Assembly: GCF_024362525.1 (NCBI RefSeq)
Contig: NZ_CP101458.1
Location: forward strand, 62,001-126,000
Source of the DNA: Natrononativus amylolyticus
GTDB taxonomy: Archaea; Halobacteriota; Halobacteria; Halobacteriales; Natrialbaceae
Direction of reading: 5' to 3'
DNA length: 64,000 nt
Part shown: positions 50,220-58,222 of the stretch, one piece after another
Layout of the letters: each line of letters starts with the position of its first letter
Position numbering within the stretch: the first letter of the stretch is position 1
Notes under the pieces: model-generated
The model's input: only the letters and a program-made list of their open reading frames with translations
What the model was told of the DNA's origin: nothing
The model's database searches: none
Program-made: the position numbers and the translations under genes

Positions 50220-50603
50220 TCACTCGTAGACGGCGTCGGGATCGAACACCGTCTCGCCGACGCGCTCGCCGCCGACGGTTCGGTAGAAACACGACCGGTG
50301 GCCGGTGTGGCAGGCCCCGCCTTCCTGGTCGACGCGGTAGAGCAGGGCGTCGGCGTCGCAGTCGACCCGCACCTCCCGGATCTCCTGGGTGTGGCCGCTC
50401 GTCTTTCCCTTCTGCCAGAGTTCGTCGCGGCTGCGCGAGTAGTAGTGGGCGGTCCCCGTCTCGAGGGTTCGCTCCAGGGCCTCGGGAGAGACGTACGCGA
50501 GCATCAACACCTCGCCGGAGTCGGCGTCCTGGGCGACCGCCGGAACGAGGCCGTCCTCGCCGAAGTCGACGTCGACGCCGCTCTCGGATGCGCTCGAGTT
50601 CAT
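50220..50603 (-). CDS. hisI: Phosphoribosyl-AMP cyclohydrolase
   Basis: A 127-residue enzyme of histidine synthesis that opens the purine ring of PR-AMP. The zinc and magnesium ligands are in [12 protein letters not shown] and [27 protein letters not shown] is the family signature. It is the monofunctional archaeal form with no HisE domain fused. Its downstream neighbour is the coiled-coil gene. Confidence 0.95.
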
Positions 50604-50720: not shown

Positions 50721-53700
50721 CTATCCGAGCGCGCCGACGGCCGGGGACGCGGTACCGGCCTCGAGCGACATCGAGGCGGTGCCGTTCTCTTCGGCCGGTT
50801 CGACCTCGATCTGGACGGGGTCGACGCCGTTGACCGAGACGATCGACGTACCCGCCTCCTCGAGCTCGAACGAGAGGTCGACGACGTCGACCTCGTCGGG
50901 CTCGAGGGAGACCGTCTCGGTGTCGACGGGGCTCGAGTCCTCGTAGAGGGTCACGTCGTACTCGCCGGCGGCGTCGCCCTGGTTGACGACGACGGCCTCG
51001 GCGGTGAGCGTGTCACCCACGCGGAGGTCTTCCTCGGCCGGGTCGGGGTCGAGGAAGTAGCCCGTCACGCCGATGTCGGCGCGGGTGCGGTCGACTTCGA
51101 TCCCGTCGGTGACCTCGTCGTCCGCGCTGAACACGCCGTGTTCGTAGTAGTCCGGCCGCTGGTTGTCCGCGACCTCGTACTCGAACTCGACGGTCGTCGA
51201 CTCGCCGCCCTCGAGGGAGACCTCCTCGCTCACCGAGAGCGGCAGGAAGCCGTCCTGCTGGATCTCGAAGTCGTCCGCCGAGGCCTGTTCGACGGACGCC
51301 AGGTCGAAGTCGGCACCTGCGGTCGCGTCCGCGTCGGCGCTCGTGCTCGCGCCGGCGGCCGCCTGTGCTGAGACGTGTTCGACGGCATTGGCGAGCAGCA
51401 TGTTGCCCTCGTCGGTGAAGGATTCCTCGTCGGTGAAGAAGTCCCGGGCAACGGCGGTCGCCAGCACCTCGTTTTCGTCGTCGTTCACCGCGATCGACGG
51501 CCCCTCGTGGACGCCGTCGTCGCCGGCGGAGAAGTCGGCGTCCGCCAGCACGGTGCCGTCGTAGTCGTCGAACCACGCGCCCCACGTGGTGGAGCCGGAG
51601 TACACTTCGACGGTGTCGCCGGCCGAGCCGACGCCGTCGAAGATCGGGTGGTCCTCGTGGATCTCGATCTCGACGGGTTCGCCGTCGGTCGCCGTGGCGT
51701 CCTCGTCGCGCTCGCCGGGGTTCTCGCGCACGTTGTGCAGGCGGTAGACGCCGTCGGCGTACGCCTCGGCCGTGCCGCCCTGGTAGGAGTCGAGGTAGAC
51801 CGCGCCCTGGTCGTCCTCGAGACCGCCGAGGAAGTCCTCGGCGAGGTCGTCGCTGCCGATTCGCTGGACGACGAACGCGTCGTAGTCGTCCATCGAGTCG
51901 AGCAGGTCGTCGGCCTCGAGCAGGTCGACCTCGTAGACGTCCGCGTCGAGTCGGTCCTCGAGGACCGCAACGAGCGCCCCCTCGTGGTAGTCCTCCTCGT
52001 CGACGACCGCAACGGAGACGTCCTCGGGGTCGCCGATCCCGTCGTCGTCGTCCGTGCCGACGTCGAACTCGTAGGTCACTTCCTGGGTGCCCTCGAAGTC
52101 GCCGGTGTTCTCGACGTCGACGCTCACGGTGAGCGTTTCACCCTGGCCGACGTGGGCCGGTGCCTCGAAGTCACTCAGTTCGAAGTGGGCTTCCTCGCCC
52201 TCTTCGATCTCGATCGGGGCGTACTCGTCGTCGAACCTGACCTCGACGCCCTGCTGGTAGTCGCCGGGCTCGAGGTCCTTCGGGACGGCTGCTTCGAACG
52301 CGACGACCGTCTCCTCGCCGGGCTCGAGAGAGACCGTCTCGGTCGCCTCGACCTCGTCGTCGAAGACGAACTCGACGGTCTGGGTGGTTTCCTCCCACCC
52401 GGTGTGCTCGAGCGTCGCCTCGACGGCGTACTCGTCGCCCTGCGTCGCGTTCGCGGGCGCCTCGAGGTCCGTCACCTCGACGAGCTCGGGCGCGTCGACC
52501 TTGGTGAGCGCGAACGCCTCGTGGTCCGCACTCGAGACGACGTGCGCGGCGTCGCCGAGCCCGTCGTCCTCGCTGACGACGTACTCGAACTCCACCGTGG
52601 TGCTCTCGCCCGGCTCGAGTTCGACGCTCTGTGCCGGTTCGTCTGCCTGCGCCGCGGCCGCCTGACCGCTGACGCTGCCGACGTTAACGTACTCGACCGC
52701 GTTGGCGAGCAGCGCGTTCGCCTCGTCGGTGTAGTCGTCGTCCGCGACCCAGGTGGTGCGGCCGAGGGTGAGGAGGATCTCGTTCTCCTCGTCGCCGACG
52801 CCGACGGCCGAGCCGTCCGGGCTCGCACCGTCCAGACCGCCATCCGCGAGCACGGTGCCGTCGTAGCCGTCGAACCACGCGCGGTCCGCCGAGCTGACGT
52901 CGTACATCGTGATCGTTTCGCCCGCCTCACCGACGCCGGTGAAGATCGGGTGATCCTCGTGGAGTTCGTAGTCGACGCTGCCGTCGCCGGAGAAGCTCGT
53001 GCTGACCGAGAGGTCGTCGCGCTCCTCGGCGAGGGCGCTGATGCCGTCGGAGCCGCTGCCCCAGTTCTCGAGGTAGACGACGCCCTGGTCGTCGTCGAGT
53101 TCGGCGAGGAAGTCGCCGAGGTCGACGTTCGAGAGGTCGTTGATCACGAAGACGTCGTACTCGTCGGTTACGTCCAGCAGGTCGCCGTCGTGGACGGCGT
53201 CGACGGTGTAGTGCTCGTCGAGTTCGTCCGCGAGCGTCTCGGCGGTGTTCTCGACGCCGTGTGGGTCGATCCGCTCTAAGTCCTGTGACTCGAACTCGGA
53301 GTCGCCGGTGCGTTCCTCGAGGTCCTCGAGCAGCGCCTCGTCCGCGGCGTCGACGCCGCTGCCGACGACGGCGACGTCGCCGGGTGCGTCGCCGAGTTCG
53401 TACGCGAGCGACTGCGTGTCGGTTGCCTCGCCGGTGTTCTCGACCGTCGCGGTGACGGTGATCTCCTCACCGTGGGCGACCTCCGCCGGGCCGTCGACGT
53501 CGCTCACGGCGAAGTGCGCCTCGAGGACCGTCAGTTCGGCGGTCAGCGAGTCGTCGTCGGTGAACACGCCGTGGTCGTAGGTGCCGCCCTCGGCGTCGAC
53601 CGTGACGTTCTCGAAGGCGACGGTCGTCTCCTCGCCCGCCTCGAGCGTGACGTCTTCCGTCGCGACGGCGTCCTCGAGGTCGTCGAACCGGAACTCGACG

Positions 53701-55850
53701 TCCTGTTCGTCGGCTGCGTTACCCGTGTTCTCGACCGTGGCCTCGACGTCGATCTCGTCGCCCCGTTCGACCTCGTCAGGGGCCTCGAGGCCGGTTACCT
53801 CGAAGTGCGGATTCAGAACGGTGAGTTCGCTCGTCTCGGCTCCCTCGTCGGCGAAGATGCCGTAGGCGTACTCGCCGCCCGCGAGTCCGTCGGTGGACGC
53901 GGTCAGCGTGACGCTCTCCTCGCCGTCGGGCGCCAGATCGCTCACCGCCGTCGCGACGGTCGCGTTCTCGTCTAAGTCGTCCGCCGAGTCGGCCAGTCGG
54001 AGCTCGATCGCCTCGATGGCGCCGACGTCGCCGACGTTCTCGAGGTCGGCCGACACCTGGACCGCGTCGCCCTCGTCGACCTCGTCGGGGCCCTCGAGGT
54101 TCGAGACCTCGATCTGGCCAGGATCGGCCTGGCCGTTTCTGAGCTGGCGGATCAGCCGGAGGTCCTCGTCCGTGACGTTGCCGCTGCGGGTGACGTCCGC
54201 GAGCTCGGTGTTGAGCTCGTCCTCGTCGATCCGGTCCTGGAGGTACTGGCGGGTCAGCTGGACGTCCTCGTTGTCGATCACGCCGTCCTCGTTGACGTCG
54301 CCGAGCTCGTACTCGGGGACGCCGACGCCGAGGTCGAGTTCCTCGGCGGCGGCGGTGACGTCGATGATGCCCATCCCGTACCGGGTGTCCTTCTCGTCGT
54401 CAGGCTCGTCCCAGTCGTCGGGTTTCCAGGCGGTTTCCTCGAGGGCCTCTTCGATCTCCTCGACGGTCAGGTCGGGGTCCGCCGATCGGAAGAGCCCGAC
54501 CGTGCCCGCGATGTGCGGGGAGGACATCGACGTCCCGCTCAGGATATCGTAGCCCTCGCCGTCGGGACCGGCGCTGTAGACGTCCTCGCCGGGTGCGGCG
54601 ACGTCGGGCTTGACGAAGGAGTCGGGCCACTCCTCCGGCGGGTCGTCGAACTCGTCCTTCTCGACGACCATGCCGCTCGAGAAGTCGGAGATATCCTCCG
54701 CCTCGTTCGAGGAACCGATCGAGAACGAGTCGTAGTCGGTCGCGGGTGCGCTCACGCAACCGTCGCCGCCGTTGCCGGCGGAGGTCACGACGACCGTGCC
54801 CGCGCTGCGGGCGTTGTCGATCGGTTCGATGAAGATATCCTCGTAGGCCGGGCCGCCGAACAGGCCGCAGCCGATGCCGAGGCTCATGCTGGCGACGTCG
54901 GCGTCGTTTTCGACGGCCCACTCCATCGCGCCGACGATGGTGACGTCCATCGCGGAGTCGTAGAAGACGTCCGCGTGGAGCAGGTCGGCTTCGGGCGCGA
55001 CGCCGATCGCCGTTCCGGAGGCGTCGCCGCCGGTCGCGGTACCGCTGACGTGGTCGCCGTGGCCGGTGTCGGAAGACGGCTCGACGCCCTCGATGATCTC
55101 GCCGTTCGCGTCGAACGCCTCGAAGCCGCCGGGGTAAGTCGGGTCGTCCGGGTCGTCGGTGTACAGCTCGAGGTCGGGGTGTGCCGGATCGATCCCGTCG
55201 TCGATGATCGCGACCGTCGAGCCCTCGCCCATTGTGCTGTACTCGTCCCAGAACTCGGGCGCGTTGATCTGCTCGAGCCCGTACGTGTACTCGTCCTCCT
55301 CGCCGGGATCGGCCGCGCGCTGCTCGACCGGCTCGATCGGCTCGATCTCCTGGCTGAGGTGGATCGCCTCGACGCCAGGGAGCTCCCGCAGCTCCGCGAT
55401 TGCGCGCTCGTCGGCGTCGGTGGTCACTGCGACCAGGTTCGAGAGCCAGAACGTGTTCCGGACCTCCGCGGCGTCACTCTCCGCGAGCCTGTCGAGGACC
55501 GGCTCCTGGGTCGCCGCCGCGTGATCTTCGAGCTGCGCCCGTACGACCTCCCCGTCGGTCGCCGTCACCGTCGGTTGCTCTAAGGCGAGCACGAGAGCCA
55601 GCTCGTCCTCGCCGTCGTCGATCGCCTCGCCGATCTGGCGGTCGACGGCGACTGCGGCCGCGTCGTGTGTTTCTTCGATTTCCTCTATCGAGACGTCCCC
55701 CTGTGCGCTCAGTTCCGCAGGGGCGGACGCCTGTCCGTCCTCGGACGTCGTCGTCGCTCCGCCGGCTCCGACGGCGCCGATGGCGACCATCGAGAGAACC
55801 ATGATGAGCGAGAGGACAACCCCGTTGATTCGTTTCGTTCGTTGTCTCAT
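50721..55850 (-). CDS. Giant secreted subtilisin-like protease (S8) with dockerin, CARDB repeats and two inserted domains
   Basis: A 1709-residue exported protein. A Sec-like signal (KRINGVVLSLIMVLSM, about 1-32) replaces the usual Tat signal. A propeptide (to about 165) precedes the S8 domain: Asp217 (IIDDGIDPAHP), His264 (GHGDHVSGT), Ser441 (GTSMSSPHIAG). Residues about 515-572 are a type I dockerin pair (DVNEDGVIDNEDVQLTRQYL). Then six CARDB/Ig-like units follow. Units 3 and 5 are each interrupted by about 230-250 residues of a related alpha/beta domain of the GATase/ThuA type (DVAVVGSGVDAAD; DVSVAVVDEEDYHEG; both with ELHEDHPIF/EIHEDHPIF and DGYDGTVLAD/DDYDGTVLAD). There is no C-terminal TM or PGF anchor. 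It probably digests proteins outside the cell; the inserts have no assigned job. Confidence 0.9.
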   Translation of the reverse strand: MRQRTKRINGVVLSLIMVLSMVAIGAVGAGGATTTSEDGQASAPAELSAQGDVSIEEIEETHDAAAVAVDRQIGEAIDDGEDELALVLALEQPTVTATDGEVVRAQLEDHAAATQEPVLDRLAESDAAEVRNTFWLSNLVAVTTDADERAIAELRELPGVEAIHLSQEIEPIEPVEQRAADPGEEDEYTYGLEQINAPEFWDEYSTMGEGSTVAIIDDGIDPAHPDLELYTDDPDDPTYPGGFEAFDANGEIIEGVEPSSDTGHGDHVSGTATGGDASGTAIGVAPEADLLHADVFYDSAMDVTIVGAMEWAVENDADVASMSLGIGCGLFGGPAYEDIFIEPIDNARSAGTVVVTSAGNGGDGCVSAPATDYDSFSIGSSNEAEDISDFSSGMVVEKDEFDDPPEEWPDSFVKPDVAAPGEDVYSAGPDGEGYDILSGTSMSSPHIAGTVGLFRSADPDLTVEEIEEALEETAWKPDDWDEPDDEKDTRYGMGIIDVTAAAEELDLGVGVPEYELGDVNEDGVIDNEDVQLTRQYLQDRIDEDELNTELADVTRSGNVTDEDLRLIRQLRNGQADPGQIEVSNLEGPDEVDEGDAVQVSADLENVGDVGAIEAIELRLADSADDLDENATVATAVSDLAPDGEESVTLTASTDGLAGGEYAYGIFADEGAETSELTVLNPHFEVTGLEAPDEVERGDEIDVEATVENTGNAADEQDVEFRFDDLEDAVATEDVTLEAGEETTVAFENVTVDAEGGTYDHGVFTDDDSLTAELTVLEAHFAVSDVDGPAEVAHGEEITVTATVENTGEATDTQSLAYELGDAPGDVAVVGSGVDAADEALLEDLEERTGDSEFESQDLERIDPHGVENTAETLADELDEHYTVDAVHDGDLLDVTDEYDVFVINDLSNVDLGDFLAELDDDQGVVYLENWGSGSDGISALAEERDDLSVSTSFSGDGSVDYELHEDHPIFTGVGEAGETITMYDVSSADRAWFDGYDGTVLADGGLDGASPDGSAVGVGDEENEILLTLGRTTWVADDDYTDEANALLANAVEYVNVGSVSGQAAAAQADEPAQSVELEPGESTTVEFEYVVSEDDGLGDAAHVVSSADHEAFALTKVDAPELVEVTDLEAPANATQGDEYAVEATLEHTGWEETTQTVEFVFDDEVEATETVSLEPGEETVVAFEAAVPKDLEPGDYQQGVEVRFDDEYAPIEIEEGEEAHFELSDFEAPAHVGQGETLTVSVDVENTGDFEGTQEVTYEFDVGTDDDDGIGDPEDVSVAVVDEEDYHEGALVAVLEDRLDADVYEVDLLEADDLLDSMDDYDAFVVQRIGSDDLAEDFLGGLEDDQGAVYLDSYQGGTAEAYADGVYRLHNVRENPGERDEDATATDGEPVEIEIHEDHPIFDGVGSAGDTVEVYSGSTTWGAWFDDYDGTVLADADFSAGDDGVHEGPSIAVNDDENEVLATAVARDFFTDEESFTDEGNMLLANAVEHVSAQAAAGASTSADADATAGADFDLASVEQASADDFEIQQDGFLPLSVSEEVSLEGGESTTVEFEYEVADNQRPDYYEHGVFSADDEVTDGIEVDRTRADIGVTGYFLDPDPAEEDLRVGDTLTAEAVVVNQGDAAGEYDVTLYEDSSPVDTETVSLEPDEVDVVDLSFELEEAGTSIVSVNGVDPVQIEVEPAEENGTASMSLEAGTASPAVGALG

Positions 55851-56380: not shown

Positions 56381-57967
56381 CTACAGTCCGCCGTCCAGCG
56401 TGATGTAGCTGACCCCGATGATCCGATCGTCGCCCTCGAGTTCCTCCCGGGCGGCGTCGGGGACCTCGGTGTCGACGTTGTACACCGTCAGCGCCTCGCC
56501 GCCGATGGCCTCGCGGGCGTTGAACATCCCCGCGATGTTGACGCCGTGGCTGCCCATCACGGTGCCGATGAGGCCGATGACGCCCGGTTCGTCCGTGTTG
56601 CGCGTGACGACCATCCGGCCGCCGGGGATCGCGTCGACCCGGTAGCTGTCGATGCGGACGATCCGGGGGTCGTCGCCCGCGAAGAGCGTGCCGTCGACGG
56701 TGAGTTCGTCGTCGCCGTCCGACACCGTGACCGAGATCAGGCTCTGGAAGTCCTCCGCCTGGCGGGTCTTCGACTCCGTGACCTCGACGCCGCGATCCTC
56801 GGCGATCTGGGGGGCGTTGACCGCGTTCACCTGCCACTCGAGCGGCTCGAACACCCCCTTGAGCGCGCTCGCGGTCACCAGGTCGACCTCCTCGGCGGCG
56901 ATCTCGCCCTCGTAGGCGACCTCGATGCGCTCCATGCGGCCCTCGAGGAGCTGCGTGGCGACTTTGCCCGCGGTCTCGGCGAGGCCGATGTAGGGCTCGA
57001 TGCGCGGGAACGCGCTCTCGTCGACCGAGGGGGCGTTCAGCGCGTTGATCACGGGCTCGCCGGCGAGGGCGGCGCTGACCTGGTCGGCGGTGGAGGTGGC
57101 GACGTTCTCCTGGGCGGCCTCCGTCGAGGCGCCCAGATGAGGGGTGACGATCACGTCCTCGACGTACAGCAGCGGCGAATCCTCGGGCAGGGGCTCCTCG
57201 GCGAAGACGTCGAGGGCCGCTCCCGAAAGGGTGCCGTCCTCGACCTTCGCGGCCAGCGCGTCCTCGTCGACGACGCCGCCGCGGGCGCAGTTGATCAGGT
57301 ACCCGCCCTCGAGTAACTCGAGTTCGGCGTCGCTGATCAGGTCCTCCGTCTCCGGGGTCAGCGGCGTGTGGACGGTGAGGAAGTCAGCGGCCTCGAGACA
57401 CGCTTCGAACTCGACGAGTTCGGCGCCGATGCGTTCCGCCCGTTCCTCGGAGATGTAGGGGTCGTAAGCGACGATGTCCATCCCCAGCGAGTCGAGTTTC
57501 TTCGCGACCTCCTGGCCGACGCGGCCGAGGCCGACGACGCCGAGGGTCTTGCCGTTGAGTTCGGCCCCCAGGTAGTCGCTTTTGGCCCACTCGCCGGCCT
57601 TCAGGCGGACGTGGGCCTGCGGGATCGAACGGGCCGCCGCGAACGTCATCGCGACGGTGTGTTCGGCCGCCGCGCGAACGTTCCCCTCGGGGGCGTTTGC
57701 GACGATCACGCCATGGTCGGTCGCCGCGTCGATGTCGATGTTGTCGACGCCGATCCCCGCTCGCCCGACGATCACCAGGTTCTCGCCGGCCTCGAGCACC
57801 TCGCGGGTGACCTCCGTCCCGGAACGGACGATCAGCCCGTGGGCGGACGACACCGCCTCGAGCAGCGCCTCGCCCTCGAGTTCGTAGTTCGTTTCGACGT
57901 CGTGTCCGGCCTCCCGGAGCACGGAGAGCCCCGCGTCGGCGATGGGGTCCGTGACCAGCACCTTCAT
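56381..57967 (-). CDS. serA: D-3-phosphoglycerate dehydrogenase
   Basis: A 528-residue enzyme that oxidises 3-phosphoglycerate to 3-phosphohydroxypyruvate, the first step of serine synthesis. The Rossmann motif is GVVGLGRVGQEVAKKLDSLG, and catalytic residues lie in INCARGGVVDEDAL (Arg), and in EEPLPEDSP and VTPHLGASTEAAQ (Glu, His). The C-terminal part is an intervening domain and an ACT domain (DEPGVIGLIGTVMGSHGVNI), the site of serine feedback. The ATG at 57967 has a GTTTAC element about 27 nt upstream. Together with serB (59481) it covers two of three serine steps. Confidence 0.95.
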   Translation of the reverse strand: MKVLVTDPIADAGLSVLREAGHDVETNYELEGEALLEAVSSAHGLIVRSGTEVTREVLEAGENLVIVGRAGIGVDNIDIDAATDHGVIVANAPEGNVRAAAEHTVAMTFAAARSIPQAHVRLKAGEWAKSDYLGAELNGKTLGVVGLGRVGQEVAKKLDSLGMDIVAYDPYISEERAERIGAELVEFEACLEAADFLTVHTPLTPETEDLISDAELELLEGGYLINCARGGVVDEDALAAKVEDGTLSGAALDVFAEEPLPEDSPLLYVEDVIVTPHLGASTEAAQENVATSTADQVSAALAGEPVINALNAPSVDESAFPRIEPYIGLAETAGKVATQLLEGRMERIEVAYEGEIAAEEVDLVTASALKGVFEPLEWQVNAVNAPQIAEDRGVEVTESKTRQAEDFQSLISVTVSDGDDELTVDGTLFAGDDPRIVRIDSYRVDAIPGGRMVVTRNTDEPGVIGLIGTVMGSHGVNIAGMFNAREAIGGEALTVYNVDTEVPDAAREELEGDDRIIGVSYITLDGGL

Positions 57968-57991
57968 GCGCGAGACACTCGCCCGGAGGGG

Positions 57992-57997
57992 GTAAAC
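57992..57997 (-). promoter_or_regulatory. TATA-like box of serA
   Basis: The minus strand reads GTTTAC, centred about 27 nt before the ATG at 57967. Confidence 0.4.
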
Positions 57998-58222
57998 GCT
58001 TCCGTTGCCTGCATATCTGGCGAGTTGCATAGCCGATGACCTGTTCGCTCGAGCGTGGGTCGCGGTCCCGACCGTCGCCGAAACGAGCCCGGTAATCCGT
58101 TATTTATCGTGATCGTGCGCGCTTGGTTTCGCCCGCCGCCCGATCACCGTTAGCCGACGGCGCGGCGCCGTTGGGGCTGGTAATCGGTCGTAAACGCAGA
58201 TCCAACAGTATTTGGCGCTCGG

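Follow-up and report, generated by a model that had tools for sequence, protein, structure and literature searches.

Halolysins such as SptA of Natrinema (PMC3158780) and Nep of Natrialba (PMC3403918) are haloarchaeal secreted subtilases, as is the protein analyzed here. SptA has a C-terminal extension that helps to bind protein substrates (PMC3158780). Halolysins are, however, much shorter, and the accessible parts of the two reports mention neither a dockerin nor a CARDB rod nor a ThuA-like domain (PMC3158780, PMC3403918). A bacterial parallel for the combination of a subtilase with a dockerin is provided by Clostridium thermocellum, where the double dockerin dDoc_0689 of an S8 protease prefers the cohesin of a cell-bound scaffoldin and was proposed to anchor the protease (PMC12484212). 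The host in that case is a cellulose-degrading bacterium, and neither ThuA-like nor CARDB inserts are reported. Archaeal proteins with cohesins and dockerins are known in Archaeoglobus and in ANME, with up to 5 cohesins in ANME proteins (PMC9012536); according to the same report, which cites Peer et al. 2009, archaea outside ANME lack large scaffoldins.

The gene described here lies at positions 50721 to 55850, on the minus strand like all its parts, of the window, the 64,000-nucleotide stretch of Natrononativus amylolyticus DNA that was analyzed. It is a single open frame of 1709 codons coding for a secreted multidomain subtilase. The signal peptide (amino acids 1 to ~32; 55755 to 55850) is Sec-like and lacks a twin-arginine motif, and the TIGR04207 halo_sig_pep model scores 18.9 bits on it, below the cut-off of 24.6. 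The Peptidase S8 domain follows (amino acids 208 to 494; 54369 to 55229), with a Pfam match (PF00082, 4.9e-45) that spans the whole model and a complete Asp-His-Ser triad, D217, H264 and S441, at exactly the residues named in an earlier sequence-only reading. This places the domain among the subtilases (MEROPS S8), and it is the sole recognizable catalytic center of the protein. The defining traits of halolysins, a Tat signal and a short S8 domain with a C-terminal extension, are not those of this protein, with its Sec-like signal, 1709 amino acids, dockerin and CARDB units. Its composition is strongly acidic (26% Asp plus Glu, 7 Lys), as expected for a haloarchaeon. The flanking genes, hisI-like (50220 to 50603) and serA-like (56381 to 58030), suggest no functional link. 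The Natrialba magadii orthologue (WP_012996932.1) is carried on pNMAG01, and relatives are annotated in RefSeq merely as "S8 family serine peptidase".

Behind the protease domain are a type I dockerin (amino acids 516 to 568; 54147 to 54305) and a series of CARDB-like units, for which Pfam returned five stretches (PF07705, 5.5e-24). The nesting of the inserts was assessed with a profile made from units 1, 2, 4 and 6 only, which was run on the whole protein and on six homologues. This recovered the six units proposed from the sequence, with unit 1 at amino acids 580 to 679 (53814 to 54113), unit 2 at 683 to 778 (53517 to 53804; also matched by Pfam), the uninterrupted unit 4 at 1124 to 1218 (52197 to 52481) and unit 6 at 1593 to 1685 (50796 to 51074). 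Units 3 and 5 were matched as halves lying on either side of the two alpha/beta inserts that had been proposed to split them. For unit 3, amino acids 781 to 848 match profile positions 2 to 66 before insert 1, and 1069 to 1111 match positions 43 to 84 after it (halves at 53379 to 53510 and 52518 to 52646). For unit 5, the corresponding matches are 1223 to 1281 (profile 1 to 53) before insert 2 and 1540 to 1587 (profile 46 to 92) after it (52023 to 52184 and 51090 to 51233). The insertion loop is the same one in both units, a hairpin loop between the strand halves of the sandwich. The search for homologues with the same layout, which had been suggested as a check, showed unit 3 split in the same way in all six (L007, L037, L038, L039, L044 and L049), and half-profile matches flank all inserts of this subclass. 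An AF2 model of split unit 3 has four strands on each side of the insert, mostly with pLDDT above 84; Foldseek with the whole split unit returned weak matches only. Profile halves and predicted strands together suggest that the parts on either side of the insert make up a single CARDB sandwich.

Insert 1 comprises amino acids 825 to 1057 (52680 to 53378) and insert 2 amino acids 1277 to 1494 (51369 to 52022), limits that the sequence-only reading had placed correctly to within 10 bases. The likeness it noted between them holds, since the two are 45% identical (E 2e-32) and are therefore homologous domains rather than linkers. An AF2 model computed on the alignment of 34 insert homologues, with a pLDDT of 92 for insert 1 and a pTM of 0.90, has as its best Foldseek match the ThuA-like structure 1t0b (3e-5), followed by glutamine amidotransferase (GATase) subunits. 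With VIA-align, 1t0b gave a Z score of 17.8 over 198 residues and the GATase subunits of GMP synthases Z scores of ~14. The overall fold is thus shared with ThuA and GATase structures over ~175 to 200 residues at 10 to 17% identity. The description of the inserts as "Rossmann-like" has to be revised accordingly, because the model has the class I GATase/ThuA fold; a classical Rossmann (NAD/FAD) identity was rejected on the same structural matches. A Pfam-A scan of the 34 copies at E values up to 10 gave no ThuA or GATase match and no convincing family, and a search of PDB sequences with the insert profile gave chance matches only, so that the fold assignment rests on structure comparison. Both the fold and the nesting are well supported, and no named family in Pfam or NCBIfam corresponds to the architecture.

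With the 34-copy profile, the domain was found in 48 of 242 Halobacteria genomes. One conserved motif, run against GTDB with each species represented by a single genome, returned 24 loci, in haloarchaea only; the DNA-pattern scan used subset A3, alignment A1 being too diverse. Subtilases account for 28 of the 32 host open reading frames, and 18 of the 32 carry a dockerin. Three layouts recur. Layout I, S8-dockerin-CARDB-CARDB-CARDB[ThuA] followed by more CARDB units, is that of the window protein, its paralogue L007 and proteins of N. magadii, Halopiger, Halocatena and Actinarchaeum. Layout II (~1100 amino acids) runs S8-...-ThuA-cohesin-dockerin, and layout III S8-...-ThuA without a dockerin; in some species the latter has another ThuA copy close to the C terminus. 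Most proteins have one ThuA-like domain; two are found in the window protein, L054 and Halorubrum.

The genome of the window holds four insert copies spread over three giant subtilases. The third of these paralogues (L008:3941-8986) has a Tat-type signal, an S8 domain and a ThuA-like domain, lacks a dockerin, and has a repeat region resembling a right-handed beta-helix. A tract of exactly 636 bp within insert 2 (51379 to 52014, residues 1279 to 1490) is 90.4% identical in DNA sequence to the insert of L007, which is located on another replicon (C2), whereas the longer matches between the remainder of the two genes reach ~65 to 73%. This tract begins and ends near the limits of the domain. In a tree of 54 domains, in which the two inserts fall into different subclades, insert 2 belongs to a seven-member clade (support 100/100) that includes L007, L044, L049 and the C-terminal copies of Halorubrum-type proteins. 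Insert 1 falls outside this clade, nearest to L037, L038, L039 and L088, which are single-insert proteins with the insert in unit 3. The simplest account is that the L007 domain was copied into unit 5 as insert 2, presumably in that direction; intragenomic recombination would have placed the domain of one paralogous subtilase into another. In the Halorubrum-type proteins (L043:3448-4107, L080 and L084), the second ThuA-like domain lies near the C terminus, and the presence of these copies in the insert 2 clade points to a domain that may be mobile.

In layout II, the subtilase gene is directly followed by a short gene whose product has a signal peptide and a single cohesin and ends in a membrane anchor that is often PGF-CTERM-like. 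This pair was found at L048, L052, L053, L058, L060, L067-L074, L076, L078, L082 and L090, with L046 as the exception, and in Halomicrococcus gelatinilyticus RefSeq itself annotates a "cohesin domain-containing protein" adjoining the S8 peptidase. The cohesin profile matches cellulosomal cohesins of solved structure (3l8q, E 3e-6). The cohesin type of the anchors occurs in 36 of the 242 genomes, and 24 genomes have both it and the ThuA-like domain, where 7 would be expected (Fisher 1e-11, a statistic that ignores phylogeny and kinship). In 22 of these 24, a cohesin match and a ThuA match are no more than 10 kb apart, a proximity that is partly built in because both domains occur together in layout II proteins. 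Another widespread cohesin family of haloarchaea (L101-L112) consists of single-cohesin proteins of ~300 amino acids, several with PGF-CTERM-like ends; it is present in most Natrialbaceae examined and absent from the genome of the window.

Two genomes have larger clusters. In G010, ten collinear genes (L099:4019-17479 and L100:94-11607; G010:C1, ~468018-493106) code for five dockerin-bearing subtilases, one ThuA-cohesin-dockerin protein, three small cohesin anchors and one scaffoldin-like protein of 1258 amino acids with 8 cohesins and a PGF-CTERM-like tail (PF00963, 3.2e-49). The cluster of G230 (L120 and L121; G230:C1:76000-114500) is larger and combines a 2089-amino-acid, 14-cohesin scaffoldin-like protein with a PGF-CTERM-like tail (PF00963, 1.5e-83), another protein with 3 cohesins, and eight S8 genes whose products bear dockerins. 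Both have the gene content of a cellulosome-like system, in which an anchored scaffoldin with many cohesins is encoded next to several enzymes that bear dockerins. In relatives, the protease module very probably works with cohesins and forms surface-anchored protease assemblies, although the assembly of a complex is something that we infer. No report of haloarchaeal dockerin subtilases or scaffoldin clusters was found in the literature searched, although one may exist.

The dockerin of the window protein, itself correctly recognized from the sequence, matches Dockerin_1 (PF00404; 8.8e-8) with 32.7 bits against a cut-off of 22.9. It has two F-hand repeats, and clearly matches solved cellulosomal dockerins (E 1e-4). 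The first calcium loop is canonical; the second is altered (DVTRSGNVTDED), with the usual ligands lost (T at position 3, S at position 5), unlike nearly all dockerins collected. Only one other dockerin was found in this genome, in the subtilase L007, and it is intact, with a better score (4.7e-12). From the dockerin, a cohesin partner on another protein had been predicted, which agrees with the relatives, where cohesins adjoin the S8-ThuA proteases. In the genome of the window, in contrast, PF00963 gave no cohesin above cut-off, and neither of two haloarchaeal cohesin profiles, A5 and A6, found a match, although, of the 8 genomes covered by the same search, A6 gave a match in 6. Two weak PF00963 matches (E 0.012 and 0.055) in L009:6197-12415 were not accepted as cohesins; this gene codes for a surface-type protein of 2072 amino acids whose sequence suggests PKD- and CARDB-like repeats, and on which the cohesin matches are at chance level. 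Given three profiles without a cohesin and the altered second loop, the predicted partnership is not borne out in this genome, where the dockerin is apparently an orphan. The alternative, that the dockerin is functional and its cohesin too divergent to be recognized, encoded in the ~1.4% of the genome possibly missing, or displayed on neighboring cells, seems somewhat unlikely. The canonical first loop, the similarity to cellulosomal dockerins, the intact dockerin of L007 and the use of cohesin-dockerin pairs by relatives speak for it, but the three negative searches, one of them with a profile effective in most of the genomes searched, and the lost ligands of the second loop speak against it.

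The chemistry of the inserts was judged from residues conserved across the 54 insert-type domains. Neither insert of the window protein contains a cysteine, and hence the nucleophile that defines class I GATases is missing; 53 of the 54 domains are entirely free of cysteine, and the single one present is located elsewhere than the elbow, which reads YL[DE][QNS]W. The strand-end His-Glu pair of GATases was not seen in the insert alignment. A polar set is nevertheless conserved (L050 numbering: D/E77, H117, N200, D139 and W142), with N200 in 54 of 54 domains, H117 in 51 and D/E77 in 50. The insert is apparently a non-catalytic member of the ThuA/GATase fold, an undescribed branch tied to haloarchaeal proteases, in which the polar set leaves room for some unknown chemistry. 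The same fold is found in the middle domain of GH42, the N-terminal domain of IFT52 and accessory domains of NDST1 and Agd3, all of which lack GATase chemistry. With the fold shared and that chemistry absent, these non-catalytic domains are the nearest functional analogy for the inserts.

We lean toward reading the protein as a secreted protease in which the nested pseudo-enzyme domains serve as binding or targeting modules. The subtilase would be exported and its S8 domain would cleave proteins; behind it lie the dockerin and the six CARDB units, an Ig-like rod from which the two pseudo-enzyme domains, held out on loops, would bring the protease to a target such as a protein substrate, a glycan or a surface polymer. 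A binding role is suggested by the non-catalytic ThuA-fold domains known elsewhere and by the substrate-binding extension of SptA (PMC3158780). Against it, a carbohydrate-binding motif was looked for in vain, and the conserved polar residues (D/E77, H117, N200, D139 and W142) could instead mark an uncharacterized active site.

The inserts might also be passive spacers or structural domains that make the stalk longer and stiffer; recombination among repeat-rich genes would then have spread them, and they would have no specific ligand. Consistent with this, the number and position of ThuA-like domains vary between proteins, and the window inserts are poorly conserved at pocket-like positions, with H133 replaced by Y in both and D139 by W in insert 2. 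Retention of H117, N200 and D/E77 across the 54 domains argues against filler, as does the association of the domain with S8 proteases across several families, and we consider this explanation unlikely. If the polar set were instead catalytic, the inserts would be cryptic, ThuA-like enzymes acting on sugars or on peptide or isopeptide bonds through the elbow Asp/Glu and the conserved His. An acidic residue does lie near the position of the GATase nucleophile in 50 of the 54 domains and the His is present in 51, and the structural neighborhood includes enzymes. However, this is very unlikely given the missing cysteine nucleophile and His-Glu pair, the Y in place of H133 in the window copies, and the many structural neighbors that belong to glycosidases or transport proteins but play no catalytic role in them, such as the GH42 middle domain and IFT52. 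Regulation of the protease by the inserts, for instance if they folded over the active site until a ligand bound, is highly improbable, for although they share one polypeptide and halolysin activity is known to be modulated by C-terminal extensions, as in SptA (PMC3158780), the dockerin and no fewer than two Ig-like units lie between the catalytic domain and the inserts, and the domain is placed differently in the chain in other subclasses. Binding is favored over regulation, on indirect grounds.

For haloarchaea as a whole, the evidence is evenly balanced on a broader picture, in which PGF-CTERM scaffoldins with up to 14 cohesins would hold many dockerin-bearing subtilases in protease complexes anchored at the cell surface and organized like cellulosomes, and proteases with both a cohesin and a dockerin would chain together. 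The branch of the window protein would have kept the dockerin without detectable cohesins and acquired nested ThuA-like pseudo-enzyme domains for adhesion, duplicated by a domain-sized transplant from a paralogue. N. magadii, which is cultured, has three ThuA-like proteins, two of them of the subclass of the window protein, and this makes testing possible.

In comparison with the ThuA-like/class I GATase superfamily, represented by 1t0b and the GATase subunit of GMP synthase, the inserts have the common fold but no catalytic cysteine and no Pfam match, and they are embedded in a secreted protease. None of the non-catalytic ThuA-fold domains of GH42, IFT52, NDST1 and Agd3 is known to lie within a CARDB unit or to be joined to a subtilase. 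The arrangement resembles that of the integrin beta chain, where the betaI domain sits within the Ig-like hybrid domain, and integrins are among the Foldseek matches of the split-unit model, with low probability; betaI is, however, a vWA domain with a different alpha/beta fold, and no homology is claimed. The window protein offers a clear case of a folded domain that sits in a loop of another and was subsequently moved as a unit between paralogous genes. Tracing this domain uncovered the subtilase clusters with anchored scaffoldin-like proteins, whose 8 and 14 cohesins beside dockerin-bearing subtilases compare with at most five in ANME (PMC9012536). If these clusters assemble, the cellulosome principle would also serve the digestion of proteins by archaea at molar salt.
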